Source of the DNA: a virus
Length of the DNA stretch: 25,118 nucleotides
Virus record (IMG/VR): IMGVR_UViG_3300034064_000113
Coordinates: 1 to 25,118 of that record
Strand: one strand, 5' to 3'
Shown here: piece by piece, positions 1,884 to 24,828 of the stretch
Layout: every line of letters starts with the position of its first letter
Numbering within the stretch: the first letter of the stretch is position 1
Program-made: the position numbers and the translations under genes
Notes under the pieces: generated by a model
Told to the model about the DNA's origin: nothing
The model's database searches: none
The model's input: the letters and a program-made list of their open reading frames with translations, nothing else

Positions 1884-3812
1884 TTATTGCTGGGGCTGAA
1901 GAGCGCCCTGACTGACGCCTGCGGCAGATGATCCCTGAGACAGCCTCTGAAGAAGTGGCGCAGCCCTTTGCAGCGCCTCATACGCAGTCGGCGGCACGTA
2001 ACCAGACATGATCTGCTCGATCTCTGCGCGGGTCATGCCGGACTTGGTCAGGATGCGCATGGTCTCTTCCGCAACCGCAGGGCTGTCACCGATCAATCCC
2101 CGGAGCGCGCTCTGCAGCACAGACGCAGCGCCGCCGGTCTTGGCGTCCGTCAGCACGCTTGCGGCGCTGGGCGACACCTCACCCGCAGACTGAGCCCGGG
2201 CAGCGGTCTGCGAACCCATGCTGGGCAACACAGAGGATCGGTTGGCCAAGAACTCTCGCTCCACGCCAAAGCGGCGCAGCATCTCCATCGCCCGGGCGCG
2301 ATCTCCGCCGGTCAGTTGCATAGCCCGCTCAAGCGCCAGCATGTTGCCGCCCATGATGTCGGCACCGTAGAACTGGTCACCCGTGCCCGCCCTGTAGTTC
2401 ACGGCGTTTAATGCGTCTTGCAGCGCACCCGCCCGGTAACCGGCTTTGCCTTCTGGGCTCAGTCTGGAGGCCCCGGCCATGGTTTCGGCAAGAGCGTCTT
2501 CTCTGCCGCTGTACAGGCCGCCGCCAATCTCCATGCCTTCGGTGGGCTGCATGACGCGCCGACCGTACTCTTCGCGCAGTTGTTGGTATCCGGGAATCTC
2601 TGGGTCAACGTACTGCAAGAGCGCCTGCTTGATGCTGCGGGCCGCCGCCACGTCTGCGGGGTCTGCGGTGGGGCTGTTGATGGTTTCATCGACAACCCGC
2701 TTCATCTCCTGCACAACGTCCGCCGGAAGCACGCCGCCCACTTTCGTCGGATCGGGAGCGCCGGGGTTCTTGGTTTGCCAGTTGCTGATGGCTTTGCGAA
2801 GAGCGGCAGCCATGCGCGGCGTGCTCAGCACTTTCTGCAAGTCCGGCGTGATGTCAACCGCCATGTTTTCCAGTGCACGGTACTGCGGGCCAAGCTGCTG
2901 CTTGGCGGCCTCAACGTCAGCCCTCATCGCGCCGATCTGCTGGCTGGGAGGAATCTGCGCTGCGTTCTCGATGTAGCCCGCCATTCGCTGGGGTGCGGTT
3001 GCCTGTCGCTGGTTCAGAGCTTGCGTGGCAATGCGCTCAGCGTTCGGGTCCGTCAGGGCTGTGCCGCGTGCAATGCGCGTGAACGACGGGTCAACGTCTA
3101 GCAGCATCGACGCCGGGCCGCGAGCAGCCAGACCGGCTTGAATTTCTGCAGGGGAGATGCCCTGCGCACGGGTGCGGATGTTTTGCTGTGCGCGCTCAAG
3201 CGGGCTCTGGGCAAACATCTCGTAGCCACGCCGCCCAATGCCGCCAAGAGCGTTCGCCGCCGCACCAAACGCAGGACCGGCCGCAGCGCCAATGCCCGCA
3301 CCCTGCAGCATCTTGGCGGGTGCCTCATTCATCGACGTCGCCTCACCCAGCCCGGCGACCGCCCCGGTGCCTGCGCCAACGGCAGCCAGACGCCCGGCCA
3401 TTGCGGGGGCACTTGCGGCGTTCCTGATCCAGCCCGCGCCCGGGATTGGCGCGGCAAAGCCACCAGCAAACTCAGCAGCCAGAGAGGCGTTCGGGTACTG
3501 CTCGCGGGACTGCGCAATGTTCTCACGCTGCGACTGCACGGCGCGCTGGTAGGTTTCTGATGCGCTCTCGCCGCCCGGGACGGCACCGGCGATGGCACCC
3601 TCCATCAGGCCGCGAAGCTCGTCAGAGAAGCCCATGGTGGCCCCTGCAGGGATCATCGTGGCCATCATCTGGCCGTACCCCATTGGGCGTGCCGGGGCGG
3701 CTGCGGCGGGTTTCTGCGCCTCCCGAATGGTCCGCACGGCCTTCCATTGGCCATTGACAAGCTCATACTCGACTTGCTCGCCGGTCTGCGGGTTCTCGCC
3801 AATCTTTTTCAT
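1884..3812 (-). CDS. Internal virion/ejection protein 3 with Gly/Ala membrane-type region
   Basis: A 642-aa protein. Residues 45-80 (MMATMIPAGATMGFSDELRG, then EGAIAGAVPGG) and 111-200 (AEFAGGFAAPIPGAGW, AVGAGTGAVAGLGEA, GAGIGAAAGPAFGAAANALG) are hydrophobic glycine-zipper-like segments that could insert into a membrane. The pattern recurs in phage DNA-transfer proteins as I know them. From 200 on it is a long helical domain (AGYIENAAQIPPSQQIGAMR, LGPQYRALENMAVDITPDLQ, PEIPGYQQLREEYGRRVMQP, RAMEMLRRFGVEREFLANRS). It ends in a Gln/Ser-rich tail. The ATGA overlap with protein 2 and GAGGTG upstream fix the start. It likely forms part of a trans-envelope channel for DNA entry, by analogy with P22 and T7 ejection proteins. 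Confidence 0.8.
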   Translation of the reverse strand: MKKIGENPQTGEQVEYELVNGQWKAVRTIREAQKPAAAAPARPMGYGQMMATMIPAGATMGFSDELRGLMEGAIAGAVPGGESASETYQRAVQSQRENIAQSREQYPNASLAAEFAGGFAAPIPGAGWIRNAASAPAMAGRLAAVGAGTGAVAGLGEATSMNEAPAKMLQGAGIGAAAGPAFGAAANALGGIGRRGYEMFAQSPLERAQQNIRTRAQGISPAEIQAGLAARGPASMLLDVDPSFTRIARGTALTDPNAERIATQALNQRQATAPQRMAGYIENAAQIPPSQQIGAMRADVEAAKQQLGPQYRALENMAVDITPDLQKVLSTPRMAAALRKAISNWQTKNPGAPDPTKVGGVLPADVVQEMKRVVDETINSPTADPADVAAARSIKQALLQYVDPEIPGYQQLREEYGRRVMQPTEGMEIGGGLYSGREDALAETMAGASRLSPEGKAGYRAGALQDALNAVNYRAGTGDQFYGADIMGGNMLALERAMQLTGGDRARAMEMLRRFGVEREFLANRSSVLPSMGSQTAARAQSAGEVSPSAASVLTDAKTGGAASVLQSALRGLIGDSPAVAEETMRILTKSGMTRAEIEQIMSGYVPPTAYEALQRAAPLLQRLSQGSSAAGVSQGALQPQQ

Positions 3813-5062
3813 TGCTTCACCTCACGCATGCCATTCGGGAGCGGGGGAATATCTTGAGTTGAACCGCCACCCAAGAAGCTGCGGGGGAGGTCGCCAAGCG
3901 TGGACTCGATGTCCATCCACTCGCCCGGGGCCAGACGCTTTAACCTGTTTGCGTTGACGTTTAACCCCCTAACCATGCTTGATTGGAGTTTCTGGGTTTT
4001 TCGGATTGCCTCTTCTAGCACTGCGCGGTTGGCGTCTTTACCTAAGGCAATGTTTGCCCACATCTGCATGATGACGGCAAGCTCCCGGTTGCTCACGGGC
4101 GCAAGATTGGTGACCTGCAGATTCTTGAGGCTCTCAGCTATCTGGGCTACGTTTAGCCCCGCAACGTCGCCCGCGTTCATGCCCAGCGTGTTGTACAGCC
4201 AAGCGTTGATCGGGCCGGTCTCAATCTGGCCGGACTCGATCTGCTGAAGCCAGCGCTCTGAGTTATCCAGCATGGACTGCGCATCGTTGTAAGCCGTCTC
4301 AAAGCCCCACAGTGCGTTCTTGGTGTCAGATATCTGCTGGCCTTCGCCTTCGCCAACTTTACTGCCGGACTGCTCGCCTCTGGCTACCTCACCCGCCATT
4401 GCGCCTACCTGCCCGGGGGAAGCCAGAAACACCGCCTGTCCCGTCACCGGGTCCACGCGATAGCCGACGCTACCCATCATGCCCGTTTGGTCTTGGCGCA
4501 TGATTCGGAACATGTCCTCTTCGGTGACGGGCTTGGGAGGCTCGCCGGTCTGCTGCGCCTGCTGCTGGCGAATGGCCATCAGTGTCTGCAGCTTGGTCGT
4601 GAAGTCGTTCATGCCCCCACCAAAACTCCGCTGGGAGGCGAGAAAGTCGGGCAGGCTCATCGTGCTGCCGCCAGCAAGCGCGCCCATGTAGGAAATCAGG
4701 TCCGGCGACGTCATGTCGCGCATCGCTTTGGCCTGCTCAATCTCATGCGCGTACTGCATCGCTGCGGGGTTTGCCGCCATGCGCGACTTCAATGCTTCGG
4801 AGTACGCTGCGTTGGGGTCGCTGATGGCACGGCCCGAGAAAGCATCCACCGGGCGCATGTACGTTGCGCGCCTGCGAGCAAGCTCTGCCGCTTGGATGTC
4901 TTCTGCTGACGGCTGCGGAACCTGCATGCGGGGGAGCATCCCCGCCTGCTGCAGCATTGCGCGGTAGCGGTTGGCAAACTCCATCGCGGGGTCCGTAGCG
5001 GCCTCTTCTTCTGCGCCCGGGTAAAGCATCGGGCTCTGCCCGGTGGGGGAAAGTGTCGGCAT
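3809..5062 (-). CDS. Internal virion/ejection protein 2
   Basis: A 417-aa mostly helical, soluble-looking protein. The N-terminus is Pro/Glu-rich with EEEAATDPAMEFANRYRAML; helical stretches continue through EDIQAAELARRRATYMRPVD, ISYMGALAGGSTMSLPDFLA and TKLQTLMAIRQQQAQQTG. The C-terminal half has NALWGFETAYNDAQSMLDNS, GPINAWLYNTLGMNAGD and RAVLEEAIRKTQKLQSSMV. This last half resembles C-terminal helical modules common in phage ejection proteins. GAGGT lies seven bases before the ATG, and the stop overlaps the next start (ATGA), indicating coupled synthesis with protein 3. No catalytic motif such as a transglycosylase Glu site was seen. Confidence 0.75.
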   Translation of the reverse strand: MPTLSPTGQSPMLYPGAEEEAATDPAMEFANRYRAMLQQAGMLPRMQVPQPSAEDIQAAELARRRATYMRPVDAFSGRAISDPNAAYSEALKSRMAANPAAMQYAHEIEQAKAMRDMTSPDLISYMGALAGGSTMSLPDFLASQRSFGGGMNDFTTKLQTLMAIRQQQAQQTGEPPKPVTEEDMFRIMRQDQTGMMGSVGYRVDPVTGQAVFLASPGQVGAMAGEVARGEQSGSKVGEGEGQQISDTKNALWGFETAYNDAQSMLDNSERWLQQIESGQIETGPINAWLYNTLGMNAGDVAGLNVAQIAESLKNLQVTNLAPVSNRELAVIMQMWANIALGKDANRAVLEEAIRKTQKLQSSMVRGLNVNANRLKRLAPGEWMDIESTLGDLPRSFLGGGSTQDIPPLPNGMREVKQ

Positions 5063-5072
5063 TTCAATTACC

Positions 5073-6209
5073 TCAAGTTGGGCCGTTGTAGGTGCCGCGA
5101 TTGACGCCTATTCCGTAAGGATCGCCGCCTCCACCCGGGTTCCATGAACCCCAAAGATCGGAGGCAAGCTGCCCAAACATGCTCCCCCAAGCGCCTCCCA
5201 TTTGATTGTTTGGCGTTCCGCCCTGAGTGGTGGAGGAGGGCGATCCTGCCGTGCCGATCTGGAGCATCGGGCCGAGATTCGCCGTGAGCCAGTCGGTGGG
5301 GGCCATCATCTGCATCTTGCCCGCTTGGTACTGAGACTGCGGGATGCCAGCGTACATGCTCGTCAGGGCCGAGAAGTAGGGGTTGGTGTTAGACATCATG
5401 TTGCCGTAGATGTTGGCGGCACCCGAAAGCGCGCCAAGCCCGTAGCGGTTCTGCATTTCGGCGTTCTGCATGCCCTGCTCAAACCCAAGCTGGTTGCCCA
5501 GCGTGGTGTTGAGACGGGACATCTGGTTGAGCCAATCGCCCGCGCTGAGCCCGTACTGGCCTGCGGTCTGCAGGGCTTGGTTGCCAATGTTGCCGTACAT
5601 CTGCGCCGCAGCCTGTGCGTTGGCGTCCATCATGCCGCGTTGCAGGACGGCGTTGTTGGTGCCCCACTTCGAAGATGTGGTGTTGCCGCTGCCAATGGCG
5701 CTGCCTGCCATGCCGGGCAGGAGGTTCTCGCCCAAAGTGCGCTGGTTCATGCCGGCAATGCTCTGCAGCATTGGGTTGATGAAGCTGGGTGCCATGGACA
5801 TCATGCCCATTGCGGTTCCGTAGTCGTACTGCGGGCCGTAAGCCTGACCGGACTGGTACTGCTGGTTTGACGTGTACGGGTTAAAACCCATCATGGCGTT
5901 GGCAGCACCCATCGCGCCCTGAGCGGATTGGCCGCCAAGACCCAGCATCGAGTTGCCGTAGTCGATCATGGGCTGGTAGGTCTCGCCCAAGTTGTACAGG
6001 CCCTGCAGGCCCTGCGTCATCCAGTCGTTGAGGCCGCTCTTGTTGGCGGAGTAGATCGAGTTGAGGTCAGCGCCCATCCCTTTCAGATAGGGGCGGATGT
6101 CTTTGTTGATGAAGTCGTACCCGGCCCCGTACTTGCCGGGCTGGCCAGACTTCCCACCAAAATACGATCCGGCAGCGCTTAACGCGGTGGCACCAAGTTG
6201 TCCCCACAT
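5073..6209 (-). CDS. Internal virion/ejection protein 1 (Met/Gln/Gly-rich)
   Basis: A 378-aa protein rich in Met, Gln, Asn, Gly and Tyr. The N-terminus GATALSAAGSYFGGKSG is the small-residue start I know from podovirus internal virion proteins. The middle is a series of irregular motifs (QGLYNLGETYQPMIDYGNSM, MMGFNPYTSNQQYQSGQAYG, AQAAAQMYGNIGNQALQTAG) suggesting extended helices. The C-terminus is Gly/Pro-rich (WNPGGGGDPYGIG). There is no enzyme motif. GGAG sits eight bases before the ATG. It begins a block of four large proteins that probably enter the host envelope with the DNA. The role follows from composition and position only. Confidence 0.75.
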   Translation of the reverse strand: MWGQLGATALSAAGSYFGGKSGQPGKYGAGYDFINKDIRPYLKGMGADLNSIYSANKSGLNDWMTQGLQGLYNLGETYQPMIDYGNSMLGLGGQSAQGAMGAANAMMGFNPYTSNQQYQSGQAYGPQYDYGTAMGMMSMAPSFINPMLQSIAGMNQRTLGENLLPGMAGSAIGSGNTTSSKWGTNNAVLQRGMMDANAQAAAQMYGNIGNQALQTAGQYGLSAGDWLNQMSRLNTTLGNQLGFEQGMQNAEMQNRYGLGALSGAANIYGNMMSNTNPYFSALTSMYAGIPQSQYQAGKMQMMAPTDWLTANLGPMLQIGTAGSPSSTTQGGTPNNQMGGAWGSMFGQLASDLWGSWNPGGGGDPYGIGVNRGTYNGPT

Positions 6210-6210
6210 A

Positions 6211-6696
6211 TCAATTTCTCCAGATTTCGATGGATGACGGGTCGCCTATTTTTGTTGGCGAGTCCAAGTGCGTGTCGATCATACGCCGCGCAAGATCACG
6301 ATTAAACGGAATGTGCGGGATCATGTACTCGTGGATTGCGCGCAGCGAGCGGTTGATGTCGCCGTACCGGATGTGCAGACCTGTGACCCTTCTGAGGCCG
6401 GACAGGTTCTCCATCAACTGGTCCATGCAGGGCTTGATGCTCAGGGCCTCAAGAGAGCGCACCACCTCATCCAGCGGACGGTGGATGACAAGCTTGCGCG
6501 CATCAGGGAACCGCTCGTCGTAGTCGGTGATGTGCAGCATGTGATCTGAGTTGCCAAAACCGTTGGCCACCGCTTGATAGAACTCGCTGCGGCTGCGCAG
6601 GCCGTTCAGAAGCTCATGGTGGCAGGGGGCTCCGCACGCACTGAAGTACCGGGAGAACCAGTACGTTCTGCTGCGCGGAAGGCCGGTGACGAACAT
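6211..6696 (-). CDS. Small sulfotransferase-like protein (161 aa)
   Basis: The frame is open from 6771, but the ATG at 6696 overlaps the nozzle stop (TGATG) and opens on the first motif, so I choose it. Residues 4-15 (TGLPRSRTYWFS) resemble the PAPS 5'-phosphosulfate loop of sulfotransferases, and 70-82 (VIHRPLDEVVRSL) resemble the 3'-phosphate motif. CHHELL at about 25-30 recurs, as I recall, in phage members. PAPS-dependent sulfotransferases move sulfate to hydroxyls or amines of sugars, lipids or proteins. At 161 aa it is much shorter than cellular enzymes, so activity is not assured. One base separates it from the ejection gene. Kinase-like P-loop proteins are the main alternative. Confidence 0.75.
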   Translation of the reverse strand: MFVTGLPRSRTYWFSRYFSACGAPCHHELLNGLRSRSEFYQAVANGFGNSDHMLHITDYDERFPDARKLVIHRPLDEVVRSLEALSIKPCMDQLMENLSGLRRVTGLHIRYGDINRSLRAIHEYMIPHIPFNRDLARRMIDTHLDSPTKIGDPSSIEIWRN

Positions 6697-8246
6697 CAGC
6701 GACCTCCGGCCAGAGAGATATCGATGTCGAGTCCGGTGAGGCCCCAGCCGCCGGGATCGGTTGCCGGGCACTCCATCTCAAAGGCCAGATAGCGGCCGGT
6801 GATGCGCGTATCGACCTTTACGCCACCCTGCACCTGATACGTGGCCCACGGGGTCCATGTGATCGTGCCGTCAGGGCTCTGGCTGGAGCCAAACCTCCAT
6901 GACACCACGGCGTTTTCTTCCCCGGTCATTATCGGGTAAACGCGGCGGATGTGCTTGATGTTGTCGCTACTGATTGCTTCTATGGAATCCAGATCGATGC
7001 CGCGCCGTGCGATCTTGCTGATCTTGTAGGGTAAGTACGCATCTTCGGAGTAGTCGAAGTTGCTCAGGTTGATGGCCGTGGGCGTCATCTCGAAAAGCAC
7101 CTGCTGCCCGCGCAAGCCAGCCAAAGCAGACCATGTGCGCGTCTCAGCGGCCCACGTTTCGCCCGGCAAAAAGTCCAGCCATTGAACGTACTCAGATTCC
7201 AAAGGACCGTAGTGCATGCAGCGCACGTTCGGCAGCGTCACGCGGGTCCACGTGTTGTACTGCCAGTTCCAAATCCATCCGACATAGGGGTTACCGGACT
7301 CTGTCGATTGGAAGTATATCGTCGCCTCATACGCTGCCGGGTTCATCACCACGCGCACTTTTTCCGGGTCCATGATGTCGGCGTAAATGGCGCGCTCAAC
7401 GCGGCCTTCAGCAACAGGGTTTATGTTCACGCCGTCATGCACGTAAATGTGGTCCCTGCCGACCACAAAATGCTTGCGGTCAAACACGCCCACGCAGTCG
7501 CGGTTCAGTGCGCCGAATTTGAAAAGCTCGCGGAACTGCATCACAAAGTTGCCGCCCACAAACTGCATGCTGTGCGCGGAGAACTGCGTGTAGATGATCA
7601 ACTGATCACCCATCACTTTTGCGTCCACCAGCGCGCCATCACCAGCACCGATTGTGGCCTGCGCCGACAGGCTGGCCGGGTCGTTGTAGTCCCAGTTCGG
7701 AGGCACGCCATTGTTGTAGGCGGCGTCCGACCACATCACGATGTTGGGCTTCTCGAAACCGCTCTCTTGAATGTGCAGCGCGACAAAGAAGTTCTTGTAA
7801 ACCCGCAGCACTTTGCAAAACGTGCTGGCTGGCCAGTTCGGCAAGTTGGAGAAGATGACGGCTCCCGGCTCCATGATCTGCGGGATGTTGGCGTAACTGT
7901 TAAACAGCATCGAGCGCCCATAGACCTCAGAGTGCCAATCGGTGTCTGAGGTGTATGCCGGGCTTGAGCGGCTTGCGTTACTGAACCCGCCGTTTCCGTC
8001 GCTGGCGTAGAGAGCCGTTGGCGCTGCGTAGAACACGGTGGAGCCAATGCTTCCGCGCTCGCACGATGACATCCAGACGGCGTTGCTGGTTGTGTAGACC
8101 TGCGTGGAGGTTGGGTAGCGCAGGATGCCTCTGGCGGAGAAGCGGACGTTCTGCGCTTCCGTCATCCAGCCATCCGGCACCTCATGCGGGATGACGTCTT
8201 TGATCAGTCCGCGAGAGCCAATGTCGCGAAGCTTGATGATCGGCAT
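6696..8246 (-). CDS. Tail nozzle/tubular protein (T7 gp12 / P22 gp10 analogue)
   Basis: A 516-aa beta-rich protein suited to the propeller-like nozzle that continues the portal-adaptor channel. It opens with IIKLRDIGSRGLIKDVIPHE, then PDGWMTEAQNVRFSARGILR, a pattern I associate with such tail proteins. Repeated beta blades follow, e.g. VFYAAPTALYASDGNGGFSN, LRVYKNFFVALHIQ, GDQLIIYTQFSAHSMQFVGG, REKH-like FDRKHFVVGRDHIYVHDG, YVGWIWNWQYNTWTRVTLPN. The C-terminus holds GRYLAFEMECPATDPGGWGL. It lies downstream of adaptor and fibres and upstream of ejection proteins, as expected for a podovirus tail. Its TGA overlaps the sulfotransferase-like ATG. Confidence 0.78.
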   Translation of the reverse strand: MPIIKLRDIGSRGLIKDVIPHEVPDGWMTEAQNVRFSARGILRYPTSTQVYTTSNAVWMSSCERGSIGSTVFYAAPTALYASDGNGGFSNASRSSPAYTSDTDWHSEVYGRSMLFNSYANIPQIMEPGAVIFSNLPNWPASTFCKVLRVYKNFFVALHIQESGFEKPNIVMWSDAAYNNGVPPNWDYNDPASLSAQATIGAGDGALVDAKVMGDQLIIYTQFSAHSMQFVGGNFVMQFRELFKFGALNRDCVGVFDRKHFVVGRDHIYVHDGVNINPVAEGRVERAIYADIMDPEKVRVVMNPAAYEATIYFQSTESGNPYVGWIWNWQYNTWTRVTLPNVRCMHYGPLESEYVQWLDFLPGETWAAETRTWSALAGLRGQQVLFEMTPTAINLSNFDYSEDAYLPYKISKIARRGIDLDSIEAISSDNIKHIRRVYPIMTGEENAVVSWRFGSSQSPDGTITWTPWATYQVQGGVKVDTRITGRYLAFEMECPATDPGGWGLTGLDIDISLAGGR

Positions 8247-23123: not shown

Positions 23124-23338
23124 ACCCCTCCCTCTTCCAGATCAACGGTCCCCACAGTATACACGGCCGTTGCGTTTAATTCATCGAAGTCCCATGGGGC
23201 ACCAGAGCCCGCTGCGGCGATCTCCTCTTCCGTCAGGCGCGACAGGGCGGAGACGCGCTCCAACTCCTGCTGCACCCAGCGGATCAGGTCAGGCGTGCCC
23301 GTCTGCAGGCTTGGCGGCTGCCCGGGGATGTAGATCAC
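23120..23338 (-). CDS. Hypothetical 72-aa protein between terL and fibre genes
   Basis: I do not recognise this protein. It starts at a GTG that overlaps the terL stop (GTGA), and its own stop overlaps the next start (ATGA), so it sits in a translationally coupled chain and is almost certainly expressed. The product is acidic, with a predicted amphipathic helix in the middle ([23 protein letters not shown]) and a short beta-like end ([16 protein letters not shown]). There is no signal peptide, membrane segment or cysteine. Position suggests a small virion or assembly factor tied to the fibre genes that follow, but that is only context. Confidence 0.75.
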
Positions 23339-24828
23339 TCGAAATACCTCCCGTCCGGTGCCCAGCCAGACTCGACCAGATCAGCGGACTCCTCTGACCA
23401 ACTGGCGCTAAACGCGGGCTGGCCTTCGCCTGCGCCCAGCAGTGCGTATTGTGCGCTCTCGACGACGTGAGAGGTAGAGTCCTTCACCGGGCGGTCATGG
23501 AACCGATCCTCACCGCTCACCTTCACGCGCCGGAACTGGTACGCCCCGGCCAAGCCCCGGACAAGCGTCGAGCAGGACGGATCGATCAGCATGGCAGGGC
23601 GGCCGTCGATGATCTCGCGCAGCAGCCCGTCGATGGCTTCGCAGCGCTTCTCGAAATCGTTGGACGGCGCGGGCAGGGCTTCGACGCCTTCGGCCAGCAG
23701 CATATCGAAAGGGGTGTGGTCCTCCGTCTGGGCCTGCGCAGAGCCCGCAGGATCGCCCCAGACCGACACACTGAAGCCCGGGTACCGGTCGGACAGGAAC
23801 TTGCGCAGCAGGCGGCCAAAGGTGCGTGCGCTGGTGTTCACAGTGCATAGCTCAGCGAGCCCGTGCCATGCGCCGTTGGGCTGGCGCTGCCATACCGTGG
23901 CGGCAGGGGTGCGCCCAAAGTCCACGCCGACCGTCAGCGGTAGCCCGGGGAAGGGGCCGACAGGTGCGACGTGCAGCGATTCGTTGAAGGCGGGATGGAC
24001 GGGCCTGCCATCAGCGTGGAAGACAAACTCATTGGCGATGTTGGACCTGATCCATGACTCTGCCCGGCCGGCAATGGCGTTGCGGTAGTAGTCCGTCGGC
24101 AGGTTACTCAGGTTCTCCGCTGCCGGGTTGGGCGTCCACGATCCACCGGAGCGCACCATGGCCCCGGGCTGGATGAAGAACTCCCAGTTGTCGGGCACGT
24201 TGTCCAGCGCGAACTTGGCCAGCCAGTGGTCGCGGTCCGGTGCGTTGGTGTCGCCCAGCACGCCATAGCGCGCACCCCGCACTGACTGCTCCGGGTAGCG
24301 GCCAACACGCGCCATCAACTGGCTCACGTTGGTATGGGACAGTTCCTTCGTTTCGTTTAACCACAGGCCGGTGAGTTGCAGGCCCCGGGCTTTACGTTGA
24401 TCGTCGGCCAGATCGAAAGCGAGAAACAGTAGCTCAGCCTGCACCGTGGTGCCGTCGTAGCGGCGGTATTGGCACGTCCACGTCGGCGGCGTGCCCATGA
24501 CCATGCGACCGACCTGCATCTGGTCAGTCCATCGTCGCCAGTCAGCGATGGTGGTGGTCTGGAGGTCCGGGTAGCTGTTGCGCACTGCAGCCCAGCGTGA
24601 GCGCCTGACGCCATTGGCATCCGCTGCCTGCGAGTCCATCTGCGCGAGTATCTCTGCGATGACCGCCTGAGTCTTGCCGCTGCCCAACGGGCCGATCACC
24701 ATCCGGACGTGAGCATTGGACTGGTGCATGCGCAGAAGGGTTGGACCCTGCGCGGCGTAGGCAACATGCACTGCCCCATCAGCCTGCACGATGCGGCTGC
24801 GGGTGGCGTCACTCCTGCCCGTCTGCAT
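23335..24828 (-). CDS. terL: Terminase large subunit (packaging ATPase/nuclease)
   Basis: The motor subunit that hydrolyses ATP to pump DNA into the prohead and cuts concatemers. A Walker A loop GPLGSGKT lies at residues 46-53, and a Walker B-like hydrophobic strand ending in acidic residues (LTGLWLNE) at about 152-159. The C-terminal RNase H-like nuclease shows VGVDFG (Asp303), VSVWGDP (Asp359) and SHVVESAQYALLG near 453-465. In that last motif, related proteins as I recall them usually have Asp where this one has Glu457. At 497 aa the length is normal. The ATG lies inside the end of terS, suggesting coupled translation, and the stop overlaps the next GTG start as GTGA. Identification is firm; the exact subfamily is not. 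Confidence 0.95.
   Translation of the reverse strand: MQTGRSDATRSRIVQADGAVHVAYAAQGPTLLRMHQSNAHVRMVIGPLGSGKTQAVIAEILAQMDSQAADANGVRRSRWAAVRNSYPDLQTTTIADWRRWTDQMQVGRMVMGTPPTWTCQYRRYDGTTVQAELLFLAFDLADDQRKARGLQLTGLWLNETKELSHTNVSQLMARVGRYPEQSVRGARYGVLGDTNAPDRDHWLAKFALDNVPDNWEFFIQPGAMVRSGGSWTPNPAAENLSNLPTDYYRNAIAGRAESWIRSNIANEFVFHADGRPVHPAFNESLHVAPVGPFPGLPLTVGVDFGRTPAATVWQRQPNGAWHGLAELCTVNTSARTFGRLLRKFLSDRYPGFSVSVWGDPAGSAQAQTEDHTPFDMLLAEGVEALPAPSNDFEKRCEAIDGLLREIIDGRPAMLIDPSCSTLVRGLAGAYQFRRVKVSGEDRFHDRPVKDSTSHVVESAQYALLGAGEGQPAFSASWSEESADLVESGWAPDGRYFE

Follow-up and report, generated by a model that had tools for sequence, protein, structure and literature searches.

The window analysed here is a stretch of 25,118 nucleotides of DNA from a short-tailed phage (IMG/VR record IMGVR_UViG_3300034064_000113), in which a small sulfotransferase-like gene lies on the minus strand between a tail nozzle-like gene and a 378-aa ORF (Table 1). 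Its product, translated from the minus strand of 6211–6696, reads MFVTGLPRSRTYWFS...VIHRPLDEVVRSL...; the plus strand of the same interval contains stops. The first-pass annotation had placed a 161-aa ORF here, with a one-base overlap at one end and a one-base gap at the other. The ORF is real and both junctions are as it described, and the strand, which it left unstated, is the minus strand. The A that closes the TGA of the nozzle-like gene also opens the ATG of this one (TGATG), and GGAGG, a good ribosome-binding site, lies upstream. At the other end a single base separates the stop codon from the ATG of the 378-aa ORF at 6209, which has a good ribosome-binding site of its own (GGAG). The gene is thus predicted to be translationally coupled to both the nozzle-like and the 378-aa genes. 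Its base composition is that of its neighbours (GC 0.58; GC3 0.76), so that it does not have the look of a foreign insert, and a late foreign insertion was rejected for this reason. A chance ORF was likewise rejected, given a match to PHROG 10855 (E = 1.6e-14) and 114 relatives in IMG/VR.

Table 1. Coordinates of the genes and motifs discussed. Positions without a prefix are those of the window; prefixed positions are those of other loci.
Feature	Position	Strand	Remarks
Sulfotransferase-like gene	6211..6696	minus (6696->6211)	161 aa; ATG 6696, stop 6213-6211
5'-phosphosulfate-binding (P-loop) motif, predicted, TGLPRSRTYWFSR	6649..6687	minus	residues 4-16; aligned to SULT1A PSB loops
H27-E28, candidate catalytic base	6613..6618	minus	aligned to TPST C-G-E-E; outside search pattern
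3'-phosphate-binding motif, predicted, R73...S81 (RPLDEVVRS)	6454..6480	minus	conservation; Sulfotransfer_3 match
Tail nozzle-like gene	6696..8246	minus	516 aa; phrog_3287, E 3.7e-86; relatives; stop overlaps sulfotransferase-like start
378-aa gene, first of presumed ejection set	5073..6209	minus	position and composition only
417-aa and 642-aa genes, presumed members of the ejection set	1884..5062	minus	642 aa: phrog_5880, E 1.9e-31 (unknown function)
PF05118 hydroxylase gene	L017:5482-6060
PF05118 hydroxylase gene	L023:3035-3616
PF05118 hydroxylase gene	L033:4480-5058
PF05118 hydroxylase gene	L048:5419-6006
PF05118 hydroxylase gene	L088:5512-6144
PF05118 hydroxylase gene	L094:5425-6009
Unannotated GNAT-fold family member	L109:3105-3536		plus 28 relatives (alignment A6)

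The upstream gene had been called nozzle-like from the first, and its match to phrog_3287 supports this, as do relatives that carry the nozzle annotation in SU10-like phages. The 378-aa ORF is presumed to be the first ejection gene from its position and composition; no relatives of its protein were detectable in phage or IMG/VR collections, and none of the 378-, 417- and 642-aa proteins showed a relation to the P22 gp7/20/16 profiles. The 378-aa protein is rich in G, M, Q and Y. Close relatives of the 25.1-kb window were not found in the collections searched, and single-protein scans of IMG/VR with the sulfotransferase-like protein, the nozzle or the 378-aa protein returned no matches. The terminase (23335–24828) is nearest to that of Burkholderia phage BcepC6B, at 46.8%, and the nozzle resembles those of LUZ24-like and Grimontviridae phages, mostly at 25–32%. 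The genome is therefore a mosaic, with a BcepC6B-nearest terminase and a LUZ24-like-nearest nozzle.

The sequence LPRSRTYW near the N terminus fits the 5'-phosphosulfate-binding loop P-(K/R)-S-x-T, and aligns motif-to-motif with SULT1A. Conservation was counted in an alignment of 46 non-redundant relatives, each representing a cluster. The PRS-T-W residues are invariant there, but this is partly built in by the pattern LPRS..W required in the IMG/VR scan, so that only residues outside the pattern were counted as independent evidence; the loop also persists in homologues retrieved independently of that pattern. Outside it, H27 is present in all 46 sequences, C25 in 43 and E/D28 in 44, while position 73 is R (44) or K (2) throughout and S81 is found in 42. 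Both predicted PAPS-binding motifs are conserved. The phosphosulfate-binding residues, whose loss across homologues had been named beforehand as refuting the sulfotransferase assignment, are retained. In the tyrosylprotein sulfotransferases TPST1/2 (PDB 5wrj, 3ap1) the PRS loop and C-x-[HE]-E lie in register with the window protein, the TPST2 segment PRSGTT...CGEE being set against PRSRTY...CHHE on sequence only; H27-E/D28 would presumably fall near TPST E98-E99. The canonical active-site lysine of SULT/TPST was not located in the window protein, which shares 17–19% identity with TPST1/2, is about half their length and is without their membrane anchor.

Sulfotransfer_3 (PF13469) matches residues 51–85 of the window protein with 15.6 bits, below its gathering score of 27. 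Among the 46 members it is found in 18 (E <= 0.1, best E 1.2e-7), and Sulfotransfer_4 and Sulfotransfer_1 in five each. Only the sulfotransferase families PF13469, PF17784 and PF00685 recur; every other Pfam family occurs in at most one member. In a profile search of the PDB, sulfotransferases take the first three ranks with motif set against motif, each match being non-significant, and a phmmer search of the window protein against the PDB gave chance matches only. Named homologues, at 23–32% identity, come from Pseudomonas, Stenotrophomonas and Clavibacter phages; they are annotated as 'hydrolase', 'NTP hydrolase' or 'similar to sulfotransferase', and, where their neighbours are annotated, most lie in modules for replication or DNA metabolism. 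The phrog_10855 proteins of the Pseudomonas siphophages PaMx28, phiH1, Ab18 and PAJD-1 are homologous to the window protein over nearly the whole length and have the same PAPS motifs. They differ in sequence (25–30% identity), in having a PRSGT or PRSAT loop instead of PRSRT, and in location, since their genes are in replication modules whereas that of the window is in the tail block. The labels 'hydrolase' and 'nucleotide triphosphate hydrolase' that phrog_10855 and GenBank records bear are probably wrong, and sulfotransferase-like fits better. A profile built from seven sequences recovered the 114 IMG/VR relatives, of which 80 were kept, and just two relatives in 84,980 prokaryote genomes. 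The family is divergent and almost exclusive to phages.

An AlphaFold model of the window protein (pLDDT 93.1, pTM 0.87) finds its best structural matches in TPST1/2, with Z = 10.6 over 147 residues (window residues 1–150). Its best viral matches are phage proteins annotated 'Sulfotransferase family' (E = 9e-7 and 1.9e-6). The predicted fold is compatible with a sulfotransferase, and would make this a known kind of enzyme and not a new fold. The first-pass annotation had named a kinase or another P-loop family as the best match that would refute it. The best match is TPST, but small P-loop kinases follow within one Z unit, with Z = 10.0 for shikimate-type kinases across residues 1–130, and nicotinamide riboside kinases are also close. 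The modelled fold alone therefore does not separate a sulfotransferase from a shikimate-type kinase, although coverage favours TPST, most small kinases aligning over 123–129 residues as against 147. Could the names given by PHROG 10855 and several GenBank records be right, the protein being a P-loop kinase or a nucleotide hydrolase? The Walker A motif G-x(4)-G-K-[ST] is absent, the corresponding TGLPRSRTYW having no lysine, and by sequence the sulfotransferases are the sole families matching several members. We consider this reading very improbable, and on these grounds and that of coverage have rejected a kinase identity. The sulfotransferase-like identity originally proposed is supported.

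How general is the location of the gene? PHROG scans of divergent podoviruses place it between nozzle or head-closure genes (phrog_578, 511, 1645, 3287, 5107) and genes for ejection proteins (P22 gp7-like, phrog_598, 21132). By PHROG a DNA-ejection gene lies downstream in 13 of 37 clusters and a head-closure/nozzle Hc3 gene upstream in 13 of 40. With local HMMs, allowing four ORFs upstream for the nozzle type and two downstream for the P22 gp7-like ejection type, one or the other is found in 23 of the 46 clusters, and usually both. In 20 of these 23 tail-block clusters the gene is on the same strand as the next gene and no more than 60 bases from it. Under random insertion into a genome of 60 genes the 13/37 count has p ~2e-14, a figure that is indicative only because of shared ancestry. 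The location is also clustered on the tree, requiring 8 changes compared with 17.4 when labels are shuffled. Groups of the PRSRT type are mostly at the nozzle–ejection position (22/33), and the group containing those of PRSGT type seldom is (2/19). The window protein forms a long branch whose exact placement is not fixed. At three loci (L053, L073 and L081) the head-closure/nozzle profile matches two separate upstream ORFs, as if the nozzle were split or duplicated.

The nozzles beside sulfotransferase-like relatives belong mainly to other families than that of the window (phrog_578, 511, 5107, 376), and an HMM search found none of the window type among them. Conversely, a sulfotransferase-like gene is absent from all 80 loci that carry a nozzle of the window's type, and thus the window stands alone within its own nozzle type. 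The recurrence of the tail-block position in divergent podoviruses is a new genomic association; the literature searched contained no paper connecting phage sulfotransferases with ejection genes. This recurrence strengthens the earlier suggestion that the gene is part of a tail/ejection programme and not random cargo. The survey of neighbours proposed at that stage bears this out for half of the clusters. A related siphophage subfamily sits in replication modules, so that the sulfotransferase-like family also occurs away from ejection genes.

The same position accommodates other proteins. A PF05118 aspartyl/asparaginyl beta-hydroxylase, above the Pfam cut-off, is encoded directly downstream of the sulfotransferase-like gene in six clusters, and in four of these it directly precedes the gp7-like ejection gene. 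Of the 80 relatives of the window's nozzle, 51 have a gene for a GNAT-fold protein just ahead of the ejection-type gene. These proteins belong to a family of 136–165 aa in LUZ24-like phages, generally placed before a gene of ~300 aa. The family is unrecognised by Pfam and was identified by structure only: the model for alignment A6 (pLDDT 90.4) has a clear GNAT fold, with Z up to 14.2 and Foldseek E about 1e-6, and its top PDB rows are GNAT-type acetyltransferases or are so annotated. In BcepC6B, gp13 comes right after the nozzle gp12 and is a GNAT above the cut-off, while in L017 and L024 the gene after a gp12-type nozzle is the sulfotransferase-like one. In Alteromonas phage ZP6 an acetyltransferase ORF overlaps the gene for the second tail tubular protein (PMC8515928). 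BcepC6B gp13, ZP6 ORF12 and the LUZ24-like family share position and approximate size with the window protein, but their fold is unrelated to it. Different enzyme folds thus occupy one nozzle–ejection position. Another GNAT, in Pseudoalteromonas phage Y3, lies within the tail block but not at this position. A cupin-like protein of 169–171 aa follows the nozzle at L167:6901-7407 and L179:2300-2812, a weak assignment (Cupin_2, E 0.066, in L167 only).

Some occupants may not be enzymes, because the acetyl-CoA motif R/Q-x-x-G-x-G/A is not evident in the A6 GNAT-fold proteins. This lends something to the idea that the window protein has an enzyme fold but serves the ejection proteins as an assembly factor or as a minor part of the virion, any catalysis being secondary or lost. 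So does P22 gene 14 (DUF2824), which lies in the analogous position between tail gene 26 and ejection gene 7 and is annotated for morphogenesis only. The gene 14 product has no detectable sequence relation to the window protein, and no link was found between it and either the GNAT-fold or the sulfotransferase-like family. Against an assembly factor, H27, E/D28, R73 and S81 are almost invariant outside the search pattern, which points to active-site constraint, and we regard that idea as distinctly unlikely.

Of the readings, the best supported is a late enzyme whose target belongs to the tail/ejection apparatus. Specifically, we propose, with a probability of about 0.45, that the protein comes from a family specific to phages and is a compact PAPS-dependent sulfotransferase, made from the late tail/ejection block, that sulfates a nozzle or ejection protein. 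The gene would be translated within this block, and enzyme and substrate would be made side by side. During assembly the protein would bind PAPS made by the host and sulfate a member of the nozzle or ejection set, the protein target being the least certain step. The sulfate would most likely be placed on a hydroxyl group, that of Tyr, Ser/Thr or hydroxylated Asp/Asn, and might tune the charge or packing of proteins that have to be stored in the head and then passed through the nozzle.

Characterised bacterial sulfotransferases mostly act on glycans or small molecules, and the antibiotic-modifying Teg12/14 and Cpz8 are among the structural matches of the window protein. Late sulfation might accordingly be directed to a host-surface glycan, a lipid or a small molecule, for example masking receptors against loss of progeny to debris or to superinfecting phage. 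Such a target seems unlikely for a gene that keeps to the nozzle–ejection boundary across divergent podoviruses, at a boundary common to a protein-hydroxylase family, and whose product in the window has no membrane or export features. Adjacency to ejection genes would also suit a protein that is packaged, ejected with the internal proteins and active early on a host protein. There is a parallel in the GNAT-like Rac of phiKMV-type phages, which is encoded beside structural genes and targets the host RNA polymerase (PMC7552054). Yet Rac acts when expressed in the cell, the available part of that source not stating ejection, and the presence of the sulfotransferase-like protein in the virion is unsupported; we consider this quite improbable.

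Returning to sulfation of the tail/ejection apparatus, a broader and more speculative extension, which we hold only tentatively and would not expect to be correct, is that a 'modifier position' is conserved among podoviruses where the nozzle gene gives way to that of the first ejection protein. Interchangeable, unrelated small-group-transfer enzymes (sulfotransferase-like, GNAT-like or Asp/Asn hydroxylase) would there modify the ejection apparatus covalently, and in some phages hydroxylation and sulfation would act in sequence on the same protein.

A review of ejection proteins makes no mention of their post-translational modification (PMC8954989). Phage sulfotransferases are mentioned in passing only in two papers (PMC10580990, PMC13299392), the first of which states that their function is unclear. 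The finding of a sulfotransferase-like gene at a position held by acetyltransferase-like genes in related phages is a hint that phages modify their own DNA-delivery machinery. If it is true that they sulfate or otherwise modify DNA-delivery proteins, virion maturation would gain a new layer, and a role would emerge for many small genes at the nozzle–ejection position that are now labelled 'hypothetical' or 'hydrolase'.
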